Origin: Roseibium sp. TrichSKD4
GTDB lineage: Bacteria > Pseudomonadota > Alphaproteobacteria > Rhizobiales > Stappiaceae
Reading direction: 5' to 3'
DNA: 64,000 nt
Assembly (NCBI RefSeq): GCF_000148725.1
Contig: NZ_GL476311.1
Coordinates: 69,501 to 133,500 of the forward strand
Part shown: one piece after another, positions 1,644 to 59,726 of the stretch
How the letters are laid out: each line of letters begins with the position of its first letter
Numbering within the stretch: position 1 is the stretch's first letter
Notes under the pieces: generated by a model
The model's input: only the letters and a program-made list of their open reading frames with translations
Database searches by the model: none
Told to the model about the DNA's origin: nothing
Made by a program: the position numbers and the translations under genes

Positions 1644-3170
1644 ATGGTAAGCCGGGTAACGACTGTCGCCTTTCAAGGCATTGAAGCTGTGCCTGTTGAT
1701 GTACAGGTTCAGGTCGGGCCGGGGATGGTTGCCTTTACGATTGTCGGTTTGCCGGACAAAGCTGTCGGAGAAAGCCGGGAACGGGTACGCGGCGCACTCC
1801 ATGCGTCCGGGCTGGCTCTGCCTGCCAAAAGGGTGACCGTGAACTTAGCCCCGGCAGACTTGCCGAAGGAAGGTTCGCATTATGACCTTCCCATCGCTCT
1901 CGGCGTCATGGCTGCCATTGGCGCGATTCCTGCCGATCAGCTGAGTCAATATGTTGTCTTGGGCGAACTGGGCCTCGATGGCGATCTTGCTCCAGTGACA
2001 GGCGTTCTTCCCGCCGCAATGGGCGCCAACGGCCTTGGCAAGAGTCTTATTTGTCCGAAGGCGTGTGGCAGCGAGGCAGCATGGGCCGACCCGGATATGG
2101 ATATTCTGGCACCACAATCGCTCATTCAACTCGCCAATCATTTTCAGGGAACACAGGTCTTGTCCCGCCCAAGCGCCAAATTGCGCGGCCCGGCGACCGA
2201 TTTGCCGGATCTCGGCGATGTTAAGGGACAGGAAAGTGCCAAACGGGCGTTGGAGATCGCTGCAGCTGGCGGCCACAATCTTCTGATGGTGGGACCATCG
2301 GGAGCCGGAAAATCGATGTTGGCCAGCCGCCTTCCCTCCATACTTCAACCGTTGGAGCCGAGAGAATTGCTTGAGGTTTCCATGATTACCTCACTGGCGG
2401 GAGAGCTTGCAGACGGGCGTTTGACGGATCGTCGCCCCTTTCGCGCACCGCATCATTCTGCGTCCATGGCAGCTCTTGTCGGCGGCGGAATAAAAGCCAA
2501 ACCCGGTGAGGTTTCCCTTGCCCATAACGGCGTTCTTTTCCTGGACGAGTTGCCCGAGTTTAATCCGCAAGTTCTGGACAGTTTGCGACAGCCACTGGAA
2601 ACAGGAGAAGCTGTTATTGCGCGGGCCAATCACCGGGTCAGCTATCCGGCCCGCATCCAATTGATCGCCGCCATGAACCCCTGCCGCTGTGGCCATGCAG
2701 GCGAGCCCGGCCATCAGTGTCGCCGCGGCCATAAGTGTCAGTCCGACTATCAAGCGCGCCTGTCCGGCCCATTGCTCGATCGGATTGATCTTCGCATTGA
2801 AGTGCCAGCGGTTACCGCGCGGGATTTGATCAATCCGGGTTCACAAGAAACATCGAAAAGTGTCGCAGCGCGGGTTGCAAGGGCAAGACGCATACAGGAA
2901 GACCGGTTTCGGGAACGAGGGCTTTCGGGGCGAACGAATGCCCATACACCGGCTGGGCATCTGGAAGACCTCGTCCCTCTCGATCAACCAGCCCGCGCCT
3001 TTCTTTCCGATGCAGCAGATACTTTGGCCTTGAGTGCCCGCGGATATCACCGGGTTTTAAAACTGGCGCGCACCCTTGCCGATCTGGATGACGTTGAAAC
3101 TGTCGGCCGGATCCATATCGCTGAGGCGCTCAGTTTGCGCGGCGAAACCCTTTTCCGACAGGCGGCATGA
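1644..3170 (+). CDS. yifB: YifB/ComM family Mg-chelatase-like AAA+ ATPase
   Basis: The 508 residues match the usual length of the YifB/ComM family, whose characterised member ComM is a hexameric helicase promoting branch migration during natural transformation. The N-terminal ChlI-like domain spans about 1-165. The AAA+ core follows, with Walker A GPSGAGKS at 217-224, Walker B LFLDELPEF near 300 and the sensor region LIAAMNPCRCG. A Cys/His cluster (CRCGHAGEPGHQCRRGHKC) after the sensor region could bind a metal. The C-terminal Mg-chelatase domain includes the arginine-finger region SGPLLDRIDL. The ATG start has GGGAG upstream. A role in DNA uptake is inferred from family knowledge; no competence genes are nearby. 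Confidence 0.92.
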   Translation: MVSRVTTVAFQGIEAVPVDVQVQVGPGMVAFTIVGLPDKAVGESRERVRGALHASGLALPAKRVTVNLAPADLPKEGSHYDLPIALGVMAAIGAIPADQLSQYVVLGELGLDGDLAPVTGVLPAAMGANGLGKSLICPKACGSEAAWADPDMDILAPQSLIQLANHFQGTQVLSRPSAKLRGPATDLPDLGDVKGQESAKRALEIAAAGGHNLLMVGPSGAGKSMLASRLPSILQPLEPRELLEVSMITSLAGELADGRLTDRRPFRAPHHSASMAALVGGGIKAKPGEVSLAHNGVLFLDELPEFNPQVLDSLRQPLETGEAVIARANHRVSYPARIQLIAAMNPCRCGHAGEPGHQCRRGHKCQSDYQARLSGPLLDRIDLRIEVPAVTARDLINPGSQETSKSVAARVARARRIQEDRFRERGLSGRTNAHTPAGHLEDLVPLDQPARAFLSDAADTLALSARGYHRVLKLARTLADLDDVETVGRIHIAEALSLRGETLFRQAA

Positions 3171-7215: not shown

Positions 7216-7355
7216 TTTTTCTCCCATCTTGAAGTTGCCTAACAGGCGTCAAGACATCACCCTTAACGCCCCGTTAAATCGCCGTATTCTATTGTCACAT
7301 TCGGGGACACCGGCAATTTTGCTGATTTCTTGGTATTGGGTAAATCGGAACATCG

Positions 7356-9554
7356 ATGGCTAGCAAGAGGAAACGGGGTCAAAAGATCGAACCGTCCTTT
7401 GACGGCTCGGGAAAAGGCGCATTAAACCTGCGCCCGACCGCACGCGACCGCGCCACAAGCGATCCTAAAACGCCAAAGAAGTCTGCGAACAAATCGCCAA
7501 AATCCGCGAAATCAAAAAGGACGGCGACCTCGGCCAAAGGGCGAGGCGGAGCCAAGGGCAGATCGGGTGCCAATCGCCGCCAGAAAAAGAAAACCTCTCA
7601 GCGGTCTTCTGGCTTTTTCGGCAAGCTTATTCGCAAGAGTGTTTATTGGGGCGCTGTTCTTGGAATTTGGGCCGGCATCTTCGTGGTTGGCCTTGTTGGC
7701 TATTATGCAGCCTATTTGCCGCCGAAATCCGAGTGGGCCGTTCCAGATCGCCCCCCCAATATCAAGATCGTTTCAGCCAGCGGTGAGTTGATTGGAAACC
7801 GCGGCGATACAGGCGGCGAAGCCGTTCGCCTTGAACAACTTCCCCCTTATCTACCCAATGCCGTGATTGCCATTGAGGATCGCCGCTTCCGCTCTCACTT
7901 TGGGCTAGACCCGGTTGGCCTTGCGCGCGCGCTCTATACGAACCTGACCTCCGGCAGATTGGTGCAAGGGGGGTCGACCCTAACCCAACAGCTCGCCAAG
8001 AACCTGTTTTTGGAGCCTGACCGCACCCTCAAACGGAAAATTCAGGAGCTGGTTTTGGCGTTTTGGCTAGAAGCAGAATTTTCCAAAGACGAGATTATGG
8101 AGATGTATCTGAACCGGGTTTATCTCGGCGCGGGTGCCTATGGGGTCGATGCAGCGTCACGGCGCTATTTCGGCAAATCGGCTCGTCTTGTCACGGTTTC
8201 AGAAGCTGCCATTCTGGCCGGGCTGCTGAAAGCCCCTTCACGTTTTTCGCCTGCACGTAACCCGGATCTTGCCGAGGAGCGGGCGCAACTGGTTCTCGCA
8301 GCCATGAGTCAGGAGGGCTATGTCACTCCCTCCGAGGCGCAGACCGCCATTGCCTCGCCTGCAACTGTAGTGACCCGCCACACAACAGCGGCCAAGAATT
8401 ATGCCGCTGACTGGGTGATGGATGTGCTGCCGAAATATATTGGCGCCATCGACACGGACATCATCGTGGACACCACGATCGACCTGAACCTTCAAAAAGC
8501 AGCCGAAACAGCGCTTCGCAACGGAATTGCGACGAACCGAGAGAAGCTTGGGGTCTCGCAAGGCGCGATTGTTACTCTGGACACGGCGGGCGCTGTCAAA
8601 GCTCTTGTTGGCGGCGTTGATTATGGCCGAAGCCAATTCAACCGTGCCATTCAGGCAAAACGTCAACCCGGCTCGGCCTTCAAACCGTTTGTGTATCTGA
8701 CGGCCCTTGAGCATGGGATGACGCCCCAAACTGTTCGCCAAGACCGTCCGGTCAAGTTCGGCAATTGGTCGCCAAAGAACTACACGAAAGAGTATTATGG
8801 CGATGTCAGCCTGACGCGCGCTCTGGCTCTTTCCCTGAATACAGTGGCAGCACGACTTGCCTATGAGGTTGGAACAGACAGCGTCATTGAGACCGCCAAG
8901 CGACTTGGGGTCAACTCCGAGATGACCCGAAACCTGTCACTGTCCCTCGGCACCTCAGAAGTTACACCGCTGGAAATCGCCAGCGCCTATGTTCCGTTTT
9001 CAAACGGCGGCTATGGCGTCATCCCGCATGTCATTCGCCAGATTCGGACAATCGACGGCAAAGTCCTCTATGCGCGAACCGGAGACGGGCGCGGACGCGT
9101 CATTTCCCGTGAACATGTCGGGCAAATGAACGTCATGATGAGCCAGACGCTTACGACAGGCACAGCCCAAAAGGCAAAGCTTGCCAGCGGGCGGGCAGCC
9201 GGTGGCAAGACCGGCACTAGCCAAAACTTCCGCGATGCCTGGTTCATTGGCTACACTGGCAATCTGACAACGGCCGTGTGGCTTGGAAACGACGATAACT
9301 CTCCAACGAAGAAGGCAACAGGCGGAAGCCTTCCAGCTGAAATCTGGAGAGAGACCATGGACAGGGCACATGAAGGCTTGCCCGTTGCAGATCTTCCGGG
9401 CGTTGGAAGCACCGGCATGGTGGTGGCAACGCCCAAACCGCGTGCACCGCGCCCAACAGCGTCAGTTGGCGCGCGCGGCGACTGGGTGCCCCCGCAAGCT
9501 GGTGACGGCTCAGGCGGACCAATGAACCTCTTTAAAAGCCTGTTCGGCGGTTAG
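7356..9554 (+). CDS. Class A penicillin-binding protein (bifunctional transglycosylase/transpeptidase, PBP1A type)
   Basis: The 732-residue protein polymerises and cross-links peptidoglycan in the periplasm. Residues 1-95 form a very basic Lys/Arg/Ser-rich cytoplasmic tail, and a membrane helix spans about 97-120. The GT51 transglycosylase domain shows catalytic Glu174 in AIEDRRF, GGSTLTQQLAKN and KRKIQELVLAFWLE. The transpeptidase domain has nucleophile Ser440 in GSAFKPF, the SLN motif (ALSLNTVAARLAY) and Lys618 in GGKTGTSQ. All catalytic motifs are intact. The C-terminus is a short Pro/Gly-rich tail. It is monocistronic by context, with DUF1330 divergent upstream and a metallopeptidase gene convergent downstream. 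Confidence 0.94.
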   Translation: MASKRKRGQKIEPSFDGSGKGALNLRPTARDRATSDPKTPKKSANKSPKSAKSKRTATSAKGRGGAKGRSGANRRQKKKTSQRSSGFFGKLIRKSVYWGAVLGIWAGIFVVGLVGYYAAYLPPKSEWAVPDRPPNIKIVSASGELIGNRGDTGGEAVRLEQLPPYLPNAVIAIEDRRFRSHFGLDPVGLARALYTNLTSGRLVQGGSTLTQQLAKNLFLEPDRTLKRKIQELVLAFWLEAEFSKDEIMEMYLNRVYLGAGAYGVDAASRRYFGKSARLVTVSEAAILAGLLKAPSRFSPARNPDLAEERAQLVLAAMSQEGYVTPSEAQTAIASPATVVTRHTTAAKNYAADWVMDVLPKYIGAIDTDIIVDTTIDLNLQKAAETALRNGIATNREKLGVSQGAIVTLDTAGAVKALVGGVDYGRSQFNRAIQAKRQPGSAFKPFVYLTALEHGMTPQTVRQDRPVKFGNWSPKNYTKEYYGDVSLTRALALSLNTVAARLAYEVGTDSVIETAKRLGVNSEMTRNLSLSLGTSEVTPLEIASAYVPFSNGGYGVIPHVIRQIRTIDGKVLYARTGDGRGRVISREHVGQMNVMMSQTLTTGTAQKAKLASGRAAGGKTGTSQNFRDAWFIGYTGNLTTAVWLGNDDNSPTKKATGGSLPAEIWRETMDRAHEGLPVADLPGVGSTGMVVATPKPRAPRPTASVGARGDWVPPQAGDGSGGPMNLFKSLFGG

Positions 9555-57428: not shown

Positions 57429-58271
57429 TCATTCATCCAAGGGCCTGCGCGCTTGGAAGACCTTGAACAAGGTCAGGATTTCTGCAGCTGTTTCTTCAAC
57501 AGACCGCCGGGTTACGTCAATCAAGGGCCAATTGTTTTCTGAACAGAGCCGCCGAGCCATGGTTATTTCCCGTGCAATTTCCTTCCGATCAATATAGGCT
57601 TCATTATAACCTTCTGAATTCAATGATAGAATTCTGTTCTTTCGGATTTGTTGAATCCTCTCAGCCGATGCCACAAGTCCTACGATCAGCGGCTTTTTCA
57701 GCTCTTTAACATGGGAAGGCAGTGGAATTTGCGGAACCAATGGAATGTTCGCCGCCTTGATGCCACGGTTTGCGAGGTAGATGCATGTTGGTGTCTTTGA
57801 GGTTCTGGATATTCCCAGAAGAACAATATCTGCAGATTCCAGATCATCCCAAATCTGACCATCGTCATGCATCATTGTGTAGTTCAAGGCTTCCATGCGC
57901 TTGAAATACTCCGCGTCCAACTCATGCTGCCCGCCGATGCGATGTGTTTGCGTTACGTTGAGATAGGACTGGAAGACCGCGAAGACCGGATCAAGAATGT
58001 TGACGAAAGGAACACCCAGTTCCCGGCATTTTTGCTCCAGACGACCGGAAATCTCCTCATCAACAAGGGTGTAGAGCACAATGCCCGGCGCAGCCTCAAC
58101 TTCCGAGATCACCCGATCTAGCTGTTTATGCGCCCGAACGAGCGGATAAACATGCTCAATCGCCTGCACATTTTCGTATTGCGCGGTGGCTGCGCGCGAC
58201 ACTGTCATCAGCGTTTCACCGGTGGAATCTGACACGAGATGAAGGTGAAAATAGTGTCTCGATTTGCTCAC
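57429..58271 (-). CDS. PPSR-type kinase-phosphorylase (RP001/DUF299 homologue)
   Basis: The 280-residue DUF299 protein uses ADP-dependent phosphorylation and phosphorolysis to switch pyruvate phosphate dikinase or PEP synthase in characterised members. The N-terminus HLHLVSDSTGETLMTVSRA and the P-loop-like VLLGISRTSKTPTCIYLANRG are family signatures. The start is GTG 58271 with GGGG 8 nt upstream. It is the left boundary of the replication-origin gap, matching the RP001 side of Caulobacter Cori. Confidence 0.92.
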   Translation of the reverse strand: MSKSRHYFHLHLVSDSTGETLMTVSRAATAQYENVQAIEHVYPLVRAHKQLDRVISEVEAAPGIVLYTLVDEEISGRLEQKCRELGVPFVNILDPVFAVFQSYLNVTQTHRIGGQHELDAEYFKRMEALNYTMMHDDGQIWDDLESADIVLLGISRTSKTPTCIYLANRGIKAANIPLVPQIPLPSHVKELKKPLIVGLVASAERIQQIRKNRILSLNSEGYNEAYIDRKEIAREITMARRLCSENNWPLIDVTRRSVEETAAEILTLFKVFQARRPLDE

Positions 58272-58428
58272 ACTCTCATCCCCAGTCCTGTTGATGAATT
58301 GGGTCTATCTCGTTCAACACCGCAAAGCCTGCTCAAGATATGCCCGATAACTGAATCTTATGAACAGCATGGGGTTTTCCGATGACTCCACCCGTAACGA
58401 ATATGGTTGGTTGTTGATTAACATGCAG

Positions 58429-58444
58429 GTCGAAATATTTCGAC
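58429..58444. repeat. Perfect 16-bp palindrome in oriC
   Basis: GTCGAAATATTTCGAC reads the same on both strands, with an A/T core. It lies 3 bp before the DnaA box at 58448. It could be a protein-binding dyad or cruciform element; I know no named alphaproteobacterial motif it matches. Confidence 0.7.
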
Positions 58445-58447
58445 AGT

Positions 58448-58456
58448 TGATCCACA
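58448..58456 (+). promoter_or_regulatory. DnaA box (Caulobacter G-box sequence)
   Basis: TGATCCACA differs from the consensus TTATCCACA at position 2 only. It is identical to the moderate-affinity G-boxes described at the Caulobacter origin. Confidence 0.75.
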
Positions 58457-58469
58457 CCGAACAAATTCG

Positions 58470-58484
58470 TTAATGAATGGTTAA
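58470..58484. promoter_or_regulatory. CtrA binding site
   Basis: TTAA (58470-58473), seven bases and TTAA (58481-58484), followed by C, is a full match to TTAA-N7-TTAA(C). It lies 13 bp from the G-box. CtrA represses initiation at the Caulobacter origin by binding such sites; by inference the same may occur here. Confidence 0.7.
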
Positions 58485-58598
58485 CACCTCAGCAACCCGT
58501 TGCGACAAGATGCTTTTTTGAGTTATCGACTCTTGGGGAGTATATGTTGTCCAGAACTTCAGGAAACTTGTTCTGAGGCGAAGTTGGACGGGAGAGTT

Positions 58599-58607
58599 TG
58601 TGGACAA
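58599..58607 (-). promoter_or_regulatory. DnaA box, reverse orientation
   Basis: The plus strand reads TGTGGACAA, so the minus strand is TTGTCCACA, 8/9 to TTATCCACA with A replaced by G at position 3. Confidence 0.6.
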
Positions 58608-58697
58608 CAATTGATCCCGGCTATTCACGCACAATAAGAATAAACAGACTCAAGAAAGACTCTTTTTGGGTTTGAAGTTGGAAAAGGCAGAGATCTC

Positions 58698-59726
58698 ATG
58701 AAATCGGAAGACCGTGCACTCATGCGCGTTTTGGCGGGTGAAAAACTGTGGCCGCCACCAATCTGGATGATGCGCCAAGCCGGTCGATATCTCCCTGAAT
58801 ATCGGGAAGTTCGGAAGAAGGCAGCCAACTTCCTCGAGTTCTGCTATTCACCCGATTTGGCAACAGAAGTCACACTTCAACCTATTCGAAGATACGGCTT
58901 TGATGCATCCATCCTGTTCTCGGACATCTTCGTTGTTCCAGATGCAATCGGTTATCCAGTTCGCTTTGAAGAAAGACGTGGTCCTGTTCTTGAACCTCTT
59001 TGCACTGAACTCGTCGACAGGCTCGACCAGGAGAGGGCAGAGAAGCATCTGGAACCGGTCATAGAGACGGTTTCCCGTCTTCGGGCGGAGCTTCCCCCTG
59101 AGACCACTCTCTTGGGCTTCTGTGGCGCTCCTTGGACCGTTGCATGCTATTCTGTTGCTGGACACACAACCCAAGATCAAGTGGCTGCCCGTGTAGGCGC
59201 TTATCGAGATCCTGAGTTGATGGCGAGATTTATCGATCAGCTTGTAACAGCATCTATCCGGTATCTTGTTCGACAGCTTGATGCGGGCGCGGACGCGGTT
59301 CAGATTTTCGATACCTGGGCCGGTGTGCTCGATGATGCCGGGTTTGAGCGCTGGTCCATTCAGCCAACACGTGCGATCGTAGATGGCGTCAAGGCGCAGC
59401 GCCCGAATGCAAAGATCATCGGGTTCCCGAAAGCATCATCAGCCCGGATGGCAACATACATTGCCCGGACGGGTGTTGATGCGGTTGGATTTGATTGGAC
59501 GGCTCCGGATCATCTTGCGCTGGAGATCCAAAAGAAAGTTCCAATTCAGGGTAATCTTGACCCCATGCGTTTGGTCGCTGGAGGCAAGGCATTGGACGAA
59601 GGGATTGATCATATTCTGCAAACGTTCAATGAGGGTCCGTTCATTTTCAACCTCGGCCACGGTGTAACGCCTGATGCTGATCCTGAGAATGTGGCCCGTA
59701 TGGTTGAACGCGTGAAGCGGGGGTAA
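58698..59726 (+). CDS. hemE: Uroporphyrinogen decarboxylase
   Basis: The 342-residue enzyme removes the four acetate carboxyls of uroporphyrinogen III in heme synthesis. The N-terminal motif PPIWMMRQAGRYLPEYR near residue 20 and ILFSDIFVVPDA with the catalytic Asp are intact; GFCGAPWTVACYSVAG is the further family signature. It is the right boundary of oriC and begins the rightward hemE-hemJ unit. Confidence 0.97.
   Translation: MKSEDRALMRVLAGEKLWPPPIWMMRQAGRYLPEYREVRKKAANFLEFCYSPDLATEVTLQPIRRYGFDASILFSDIFVVPDAIGYPVRFEERRGPVLEPLCTELVDRLDQERAEKHLEPVIETVSRLRAELPPETTLLGFCGAPWTVACYSVAGHTTQDQVAARVGAYRDPELMARFIDQLVTASIRYLVRQLDAGADAVQIFDTWAGVLDDAGFERWSIQPTRAIVDGVKAQRPNAKIIGFPKASSARMATYIARTGVDAVGFDWTAPDHLALEIQKKVPIQGNLDPMRLVAGGKALDEGIDHILQTFNEGPFIFNLGHGVTPDADPENVARMVERVKRG

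Follow-up and report, generated by a model that had tools for sequence, protein, structure and literature searches.

A conserved CtrA-type site in the probable chromosomal origin between ppsR and hemE of Roseibium and related Stappiaceae

In Caulobacter crescentus and in R. prowazekii the chromosomal origin was placed at the junction of ppsR and hemE (PMC1914354). The Caulobacter origin, Cori, carries weak DnaA boxes with CtrA sites close by; five CtrA sites and two G-boxes are described in it, the two G-boxes lie near or over CtrA sites, and exclusion of DnaA by CtrA is held to be the simplest mechanism (PMC4468827). One IHF site is also reported for Cori (PMC1914354). In the Rickettsiales (R. 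prowazekii and Wolbachia) CtrA sites were reported or predicted at hemE-linked origins, although most of these sites are predictions and the Wolbachia origins border COG1253 and not ppsR (PMC1914354). It is stated in a 2015 review that CtrA sites were not seen in origins beyond the caulobacters and possibly R. prowazekii (PMC4468827), a limit that is already stretched by the predictions for Wolbachia and its kin (PMC1914354) and by ChIP-seq in Hyphomonas neptunium, where a CtrA peak adjoins the origin (PMC7200025). The best-studied members of the Hyphomicrobiales differ from these. The origin of Sinorhizobium meliloti is described as having no CtrA motif and as not being bound by CtrA (PMC4433202), and it was reported that CtrA does not bind the origin of Brucella abortus chromosome I (PMC2877005). 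Loss of CtrA in S. meliloti leads to over-replication despite the unbound origin, and for this reason the control by CtrA was called indirect, with an unknown mechanism (PMC4433202).

In this paper we looked at the gap between ppsR and hemE in a window (the whole stretch of DNA that was analysed, 64,000 nucleotides long) from Roseibium sp. TrichSKD4. The gap covers 58272..58697 (426 bp) and separates the divergent starts of ppsR at 58271 (complement) and hemE at 58698. On its left, ppsR (57429..58271, minus strand) encodes a protein of the Kinase-PPPase family (DUF299/COG1806; PF03618, E 1.9e-91), and on its right hemE (58698..59726, plus strand) encodes uroporphyrinogen decarboxylase (PF01208, E 4.7e-110). 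The gap has a GC content of 43.7%, vs 54.2% for the whole window. It resembles Cori in its gene junction and in its weak DnaA boxes with a CtrA-type site close by, but it has one clear CtrA-type site where Cori has five, the letters of its boxes vary in the family and it has no IHF match. It is like the Rickettsiales, which are another order, in that CtrA sites are reported or predicted at their hemE-linked origins, and H. neptunium, which lies outside the Hyphomicrobiales, is comparable through its published CtrA ChIP-seq peak. S. meliloti and B. abortus belong to the same order as the window, and Sinorhizobium and Brucella-group loci (L011 and L067) share the ppsR–hemE gap. The predicted origin is thus of a known kind; what is new is a conserved CtrA-type site in the Hyphomicrobiales, together with a clear comparative test. 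Among the matches listed for the open literature, no title dealt with CtrA at a Stappiaceae origin.

Based on gene order, GC skew and an array of box-like blocks, the gap is very probably the oriC of this Roseibium-like member of the Stappiaceae, and the first-pass annotation, which had placed a probable origin at this junction, is supported by the same three lines of evidence. The genes dnaQ, coaE, aroE, maf, ppsR, hemE, hemJ, rho and mnmE follow each other in the window's order in 11 of 11 loci (L001-L011), and in 73 of 80 named loci ppsR and hemE are neighbours, 378-543 bp apart. GC skew, which had been named as a check on the annotation, is -0.05 on the left of the gap and +0.10 on its right in 4-kb windows; the cumulative minimum of the window is at 58393, inside the gap, and is weak on its own because the window ends 5.3 kb further on. 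A closed relative with a 6.35-Mb contig (G074) gives a clean result, with positive skew in 10/10 samples at 0-2.99 Mb, negative skew in 10/10 samples at 3.30-6.28 Mb and the switch of sign at hemE (6.27 Mb). In another relative (G078) nine of 11 samples as far as the one that holds hemE are negative, the other two are near zero and only five of the eight to the right of hemE are above zero, which makes its skew mixed. A third relative, G023, is of the Pseudovibrio type, and its skew shows no clear turn. The local skew is lower on the left of hemE than on its right in 63 of the 70 named loci that are long enough for the test.

For motif scoring we used strings that we take to be the CtrA, DnaA, IHF and GANTC consensus sequences, and the letters of the Caulobacter G-box are likewise our assumption. 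Every motif of the first-pass annotation was found at its place in the gap: an exact CtrA-type site, two DnaA boxes that match at 8/9 positions and five GANTC sites (58353, 58384, 58528, 58647 and 58658). The significance of these counts was estimated with 5000 dinucleotide-preserving shuffles of the 426-bp gap, in which at least two DnaA boxes with at most one mismatch occur with P 0.006, at least one exact CtrA site with P 0.0058 and at least five GANTC sites with P 0.092 (shuffle mean 2.47); all three together occurred in 0/5000 shuffles. An A-rich stretch (58622..58681) is a candidate for DNA unwinding and/or for the hemE promoter, and the highest AT content of the gap (68%) is found in the 40-bp windows starting at 58622 and 58632. 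We treat an IHF site as a frequent but non-defining feature of hemE-type alphaproteobacterial origins. With the assumed consensus, none with at most one mismatch is present in the window gap and an exact match is found in 2/87 family gaps, and the IHF site was dropped as an origin feature here.

The family comparison covers 87 gaps, that of the window and those of 86 genomes out of the 87 in the family search; the absent genome (G063, locus L126) has no ppsR match with its hemE. We call the family Stappiaceae because of the names of L001-L006, and by it we mean the family of Roseibium sp. MMSF_3412 (G001). The HemE of the window is 84-87% identical to that of three Roseibium loci (L001-L003), and its nearest row on the protein trees is L089, from the same family search. 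All 87 gaps are 420-447 bp long, and this near-constant length, in gaps whose sequence is largely variable, hints that spacing may matter.

Within these gaps the CtrA-type site is a strongly conserved element, and the comparison supports that it is kept at the predicted origin by the family and is not there by chance. In the window it is an exact TTAA-N7-TTAA (TTAATGAATGGTTAA) at 58470-58484, and 71 of the 87 gaps have such a site, exact or with one mismatch, at a distance of 215-240 bp upstream of hemE; the CtrA-type site of the annotation is supported both by the shuffles and by the comparison with related genomes that had been proposed as a check. In the aligned columns, the 71 gaps outside a Pseudovibrio clade comprise 32 exact sites, 38 with one mismatch and one with two, and in the 16 gaps of that clade none falls below four mismatches. 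When conservation is weighted for relatedness (effective number 42.6), the eight half-site columns hold the most information among all 411 placements of the same comb, which makes this the best-conserved placement in the family gaps. The N7 spacer is also prominent: exact TTAA dyads are found at N7 in 39 of the 87 gaps, at N14 in 12, at N3 and N6 in nine each and at every remaining spacer within 0-20 in 0-2. The N14 excess is perhaps the result of overlap with a neighbouring TTAA. In 400 kb of samples there is one exact N7 site in G074 and there are two in G078, one of which is G078's own origin site. The window gap has no second CtrA-type site when one mismatch is allowed; about 337 bp before hemE a second site of this quality was observed in 39/71 gaps outside the Pseudovibrio clade.

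DnaA-like blocks stand at fixed places across the family gaps, beginning in the window at 58276 (E), 58412 (D), 58448 (A), 58523 (F), 58599 (B) and 58621 (C), and these recurring blocks, together with the shuffles, also support the two candidate DnaA boxes of the annotation. Box A (TGATCCACA, 58448-58456, plus strand) precedes the CtrA-type site by 13 bp and has at most two mismatches to TTATCCACA in 50/71 gaps, with letters that vary, and in 0/16 gaps of the Pseudovibrio clade. The annotation had also pointed to an exact Caulobacter G-box; its letters are indeed present at 58448, but they are not kept in the family, so that TGATCCACA was rejected as a family feature and the exact match is incidental to TrichSKD4 and some of its relatives. 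Box B (TTGTCCACA, 58599-58607, minus strand) is kept with at most two mismatches in 63/71 gaps (2/16 in the Pseudovibrio clade), and so is box D, which is degenerate in the window (TAATCAACA, 58412..58420, minus strand), in 53/71 (0/16). The others are weak and on the plus strand: box C (CTATTCACG, 58621..58629) has three mismatches in the window and at most two in 47/71 gaps, box E (TCATCCCCA, 58276..58284) has two mismatches in 64/71 gaps and in 15/16 of the Pseudovibrio clade, and box F (TTATCGACT, 58523..58532), which overlaps the GANTC site at 58528, has two mismatches in 44/71. By the conservation profile, the block at 58612-58629, which contains box C, ranks at or near the top of the gap. 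The block reads TGATCCCGG and then box C, and a TGATCCC-like sequence is seen in Pseudovibrio as well.

The GANTC sites give a different result. The whole window holds 76 of them (152 strand hits), and with the shuffle P of 0.09 the cluster in the gap was rejected as evidence of function and kept only as three recurring positions. Two of these form a pair near hemE (58647..58662) that may be a promoter feature; its sites at 58647 and 58658 are found in 66/71 and 49/71 gaps (1/16 and 2/16 in the Pseudovibrio clade). The third, at 58528, is found in 43/71 gaps outside the clade and 15/16 inside, and those at 58353 and 58384 recur in 1/71 and 11/71 gaps outside it. It was shown in Caulobacter that GANTC methylation is not required for the control of initiation (PMC3973325), and in Agrobacterium the effect of CcrM on ori2 goes by way of repABC and gcrA (PMC11514494). 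Because the GANTC count is non-significant and methylation is dispensable for this control in Caulobacter (PMC3973325), the annotation's idea of a CcrM link between initiation and the cell cycle is weak and finds no support here.

The 16 family gaps that have no CtrA-type site form one clade (SH-aLRT 100), which includes both named Pseudovibrio loci, and on a tree built from PpsR and the start of HemE a single change accounts for the trait. These 16 rows were first chosen by the absence of the site; the later tree was built from protein columns only and is for this reason an independent check of the clade. At the aligned columns none of these 16 gaps has box A or box D, as is the case for the CtrA-type site, in an alignment that is less sure there. 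CtrA itself has hardly changed in the two Pseudovibrio genomes that were examined, in which 97 and 98 of the 101 residues of the DNA-binding part match those of Roseibium G001. Seven of eight genomes of relatives encode a CtrA that shares 91-93% identity with that of Caulobacter; the eighth, a Stappia draft (G004), has the origin site and a best CtrA match of only 42%, and its CtrA is perhaps missing from the draft assembly. GcrA and the RAMA domain of CcrM were found in 10/10 relatives searched, with PF07750 and PF18755 as what we presume to be their marks; both controls were positive for Caulobacter, and PF07750 was positive for Sulfolobus as well.

The explanation that we find rather likely is that the gap is an oriC at which CtrA~P on the central site hinders the assembly of DnaA and so holds off initiation. 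DnaA would assemble on boxes E, D, A, F, B and C, most of which are weak, and would open the A-rich stretch near hemE. CtrA~P would bind the central TTAA-N7-TTAA, and since the geometry of this site and box A is like that of Cori, the bound protein may hinder DnaA from assembling around box A, an effect that would end with the clearance of CtrA; initiation would be held off as long as CtrA~P is high. At the level of sequence this explanation is supported by the box array, the junction, the turn of the skew, the family-wide CtrA-type site and its single loss, and what counts against it is that there is one clear site vs five in Cori and that 38 of 71 sites have one mismatch. In Caulobacter with weakened origin CtrA sites the replication cycle is nearly normal, with a mild disturbance in constant culture, and the cells are sensitive to antibiotic pulses and nutrient shifts (PMC4468827). 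This mild phenotype suggests that the effect of the CtrA-type site may be small and that its role may lie mainly in changing conditions.

One other option is that the gap is an oriC while the site serves the transcription of ppsR and/or hemE and has no part in the control of initiation. TTAA-N7-TTAA is a general CtrA promoter motif (PMC9437464), and the gap must also hold the ppsR and hemE promoters because it lies between two divergent starts. One-mismatch CtrA-type sites were also found before ccrM in 2/2 loci and before ctrA in 3/3 Roseibium and 0/2 Pseudovibrio loci, and these count for little because such sites are common by chance. We regard this option as unlikely, as the distance to the start codons is about 200 bp on both sides (199 for ppsR, 228 for hemE), box A is 13 bp away and the Pseudovibrio clade has lost the site along with boxes A and D, although the site may still have a promoter role. 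It is less probable still that another factor that prefers TTAA dyads binds the site, or that a constraint on DNA structure maintains it. The assignment to CtrA comes from sequence comparison, other OmpR-type regulators are present (a CtrA query gives 31-56 matches per genome) and spacers 3, 6 and 14 show some excess in the family too, but N7 is outstanding over all spacers from 0 to 20, both in the family and in a wider draw from the order (below). That the gap is only a conserved intergenic region near the origin is the least probable reading of all and hardly credible, since the skew minimum falls within the gap, the G074 switch is at hemE, the length of the gap is near-constant and the box-like blocks stand at fixed places; what speaks for it is that among three sampled relatives the skew is clear-cut in G074 alone and not in G078 or G023.

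Returning to the proposed hindrance of DnaA by CtrA~P at the origin, another question is how far such a site extends beyond the family. The order draw contained 108 genomes with hemE, of which 87 new loci were used and 73 had a gap; the class draw contained 87 genomes, with 49 new loci and 40 gaps. The gap counts leave out 31 of 298 loci that have no ppsR match with hemE (L126 included). An exact N7 site is present in 21/73 usable gaps of the order and any other spacer within 0-20 in at most six. Among the named loci with an exact site are Pleomorphomonas, Oryzibacter and an Ancalomicrobiaceae draft. In the class draw there is no clear N7 enrichment (3/40 gaps, with 0-2 at other spacers). Only exact sites were counted outside the Stappiaceae because other spacers give similar counts with one mismatch, for which reason one-mismatch sites were rejected as evidence there; exact matching undercounts real sites. 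A 63-row clade with Rhizobium, Mesorhizobium and Brucella has the exact site in two rows (L038 and L078). On a tree of 215 rows, from which 52 of 267 gaps were omitted because too little protein sequence came with them, 39 positives need 25 changes, part of them because 7/8 sites in the Stappiaceae are scored as absent, and the control spacers 6 and 14 give 13 and 10 positives with eight changes each. As the positions differ between groups, turnover of the site is likely, and an order-wide ancestral site is not claimed.

A tentative but quite possible view is that direct control of the origin by CtrA was inherited in the Stappiaceae and recurs through the Hyphomicrobiales with repeated turnover. 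The indirect control of S. meliloti would then be derived, since a single loss took the site but not CtrA from the Pseudovibrio clade and the Rhizobium–Brucella clade is nearly without the site. Nearly all sampled Stappiaceae keep the candidate CtrA site in place, and their best-studied relatives in the Hyphomicrobiales are without such sites. If this is true, Roseibium vs Pseudovibrio is a natural experiment on freeing an origin from CtrA, and a fixed CtrA-type site in oriC, together with a clade that lost it and has a near-unchanged CtrA, allows a comparative test of how direct control of the origin is gained and lost.

Some further observations were made on the loci and on the window. Three loci of Aureimonas and Aurantimonas (L013, L044 and L060) have no ppsR match beside hemE, and because of this their origin border may differ. 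A record titled Bacillus subtilis strain SK6B4 (L079) groups with Phyllobacterium and Brucella and is probably mislabelled or contaminated. The only other exact TTAA-N7-TTAA sites in the window are at 1458-1472, before a Mg-chelatase/ComM-like gene (1644-3170), and at 7263-7277, before a gene for a penicillin-binding transglycosylase/transpeptidase (7356-9554); both genes, which were identified with Pfam, are possible CtrA targets.
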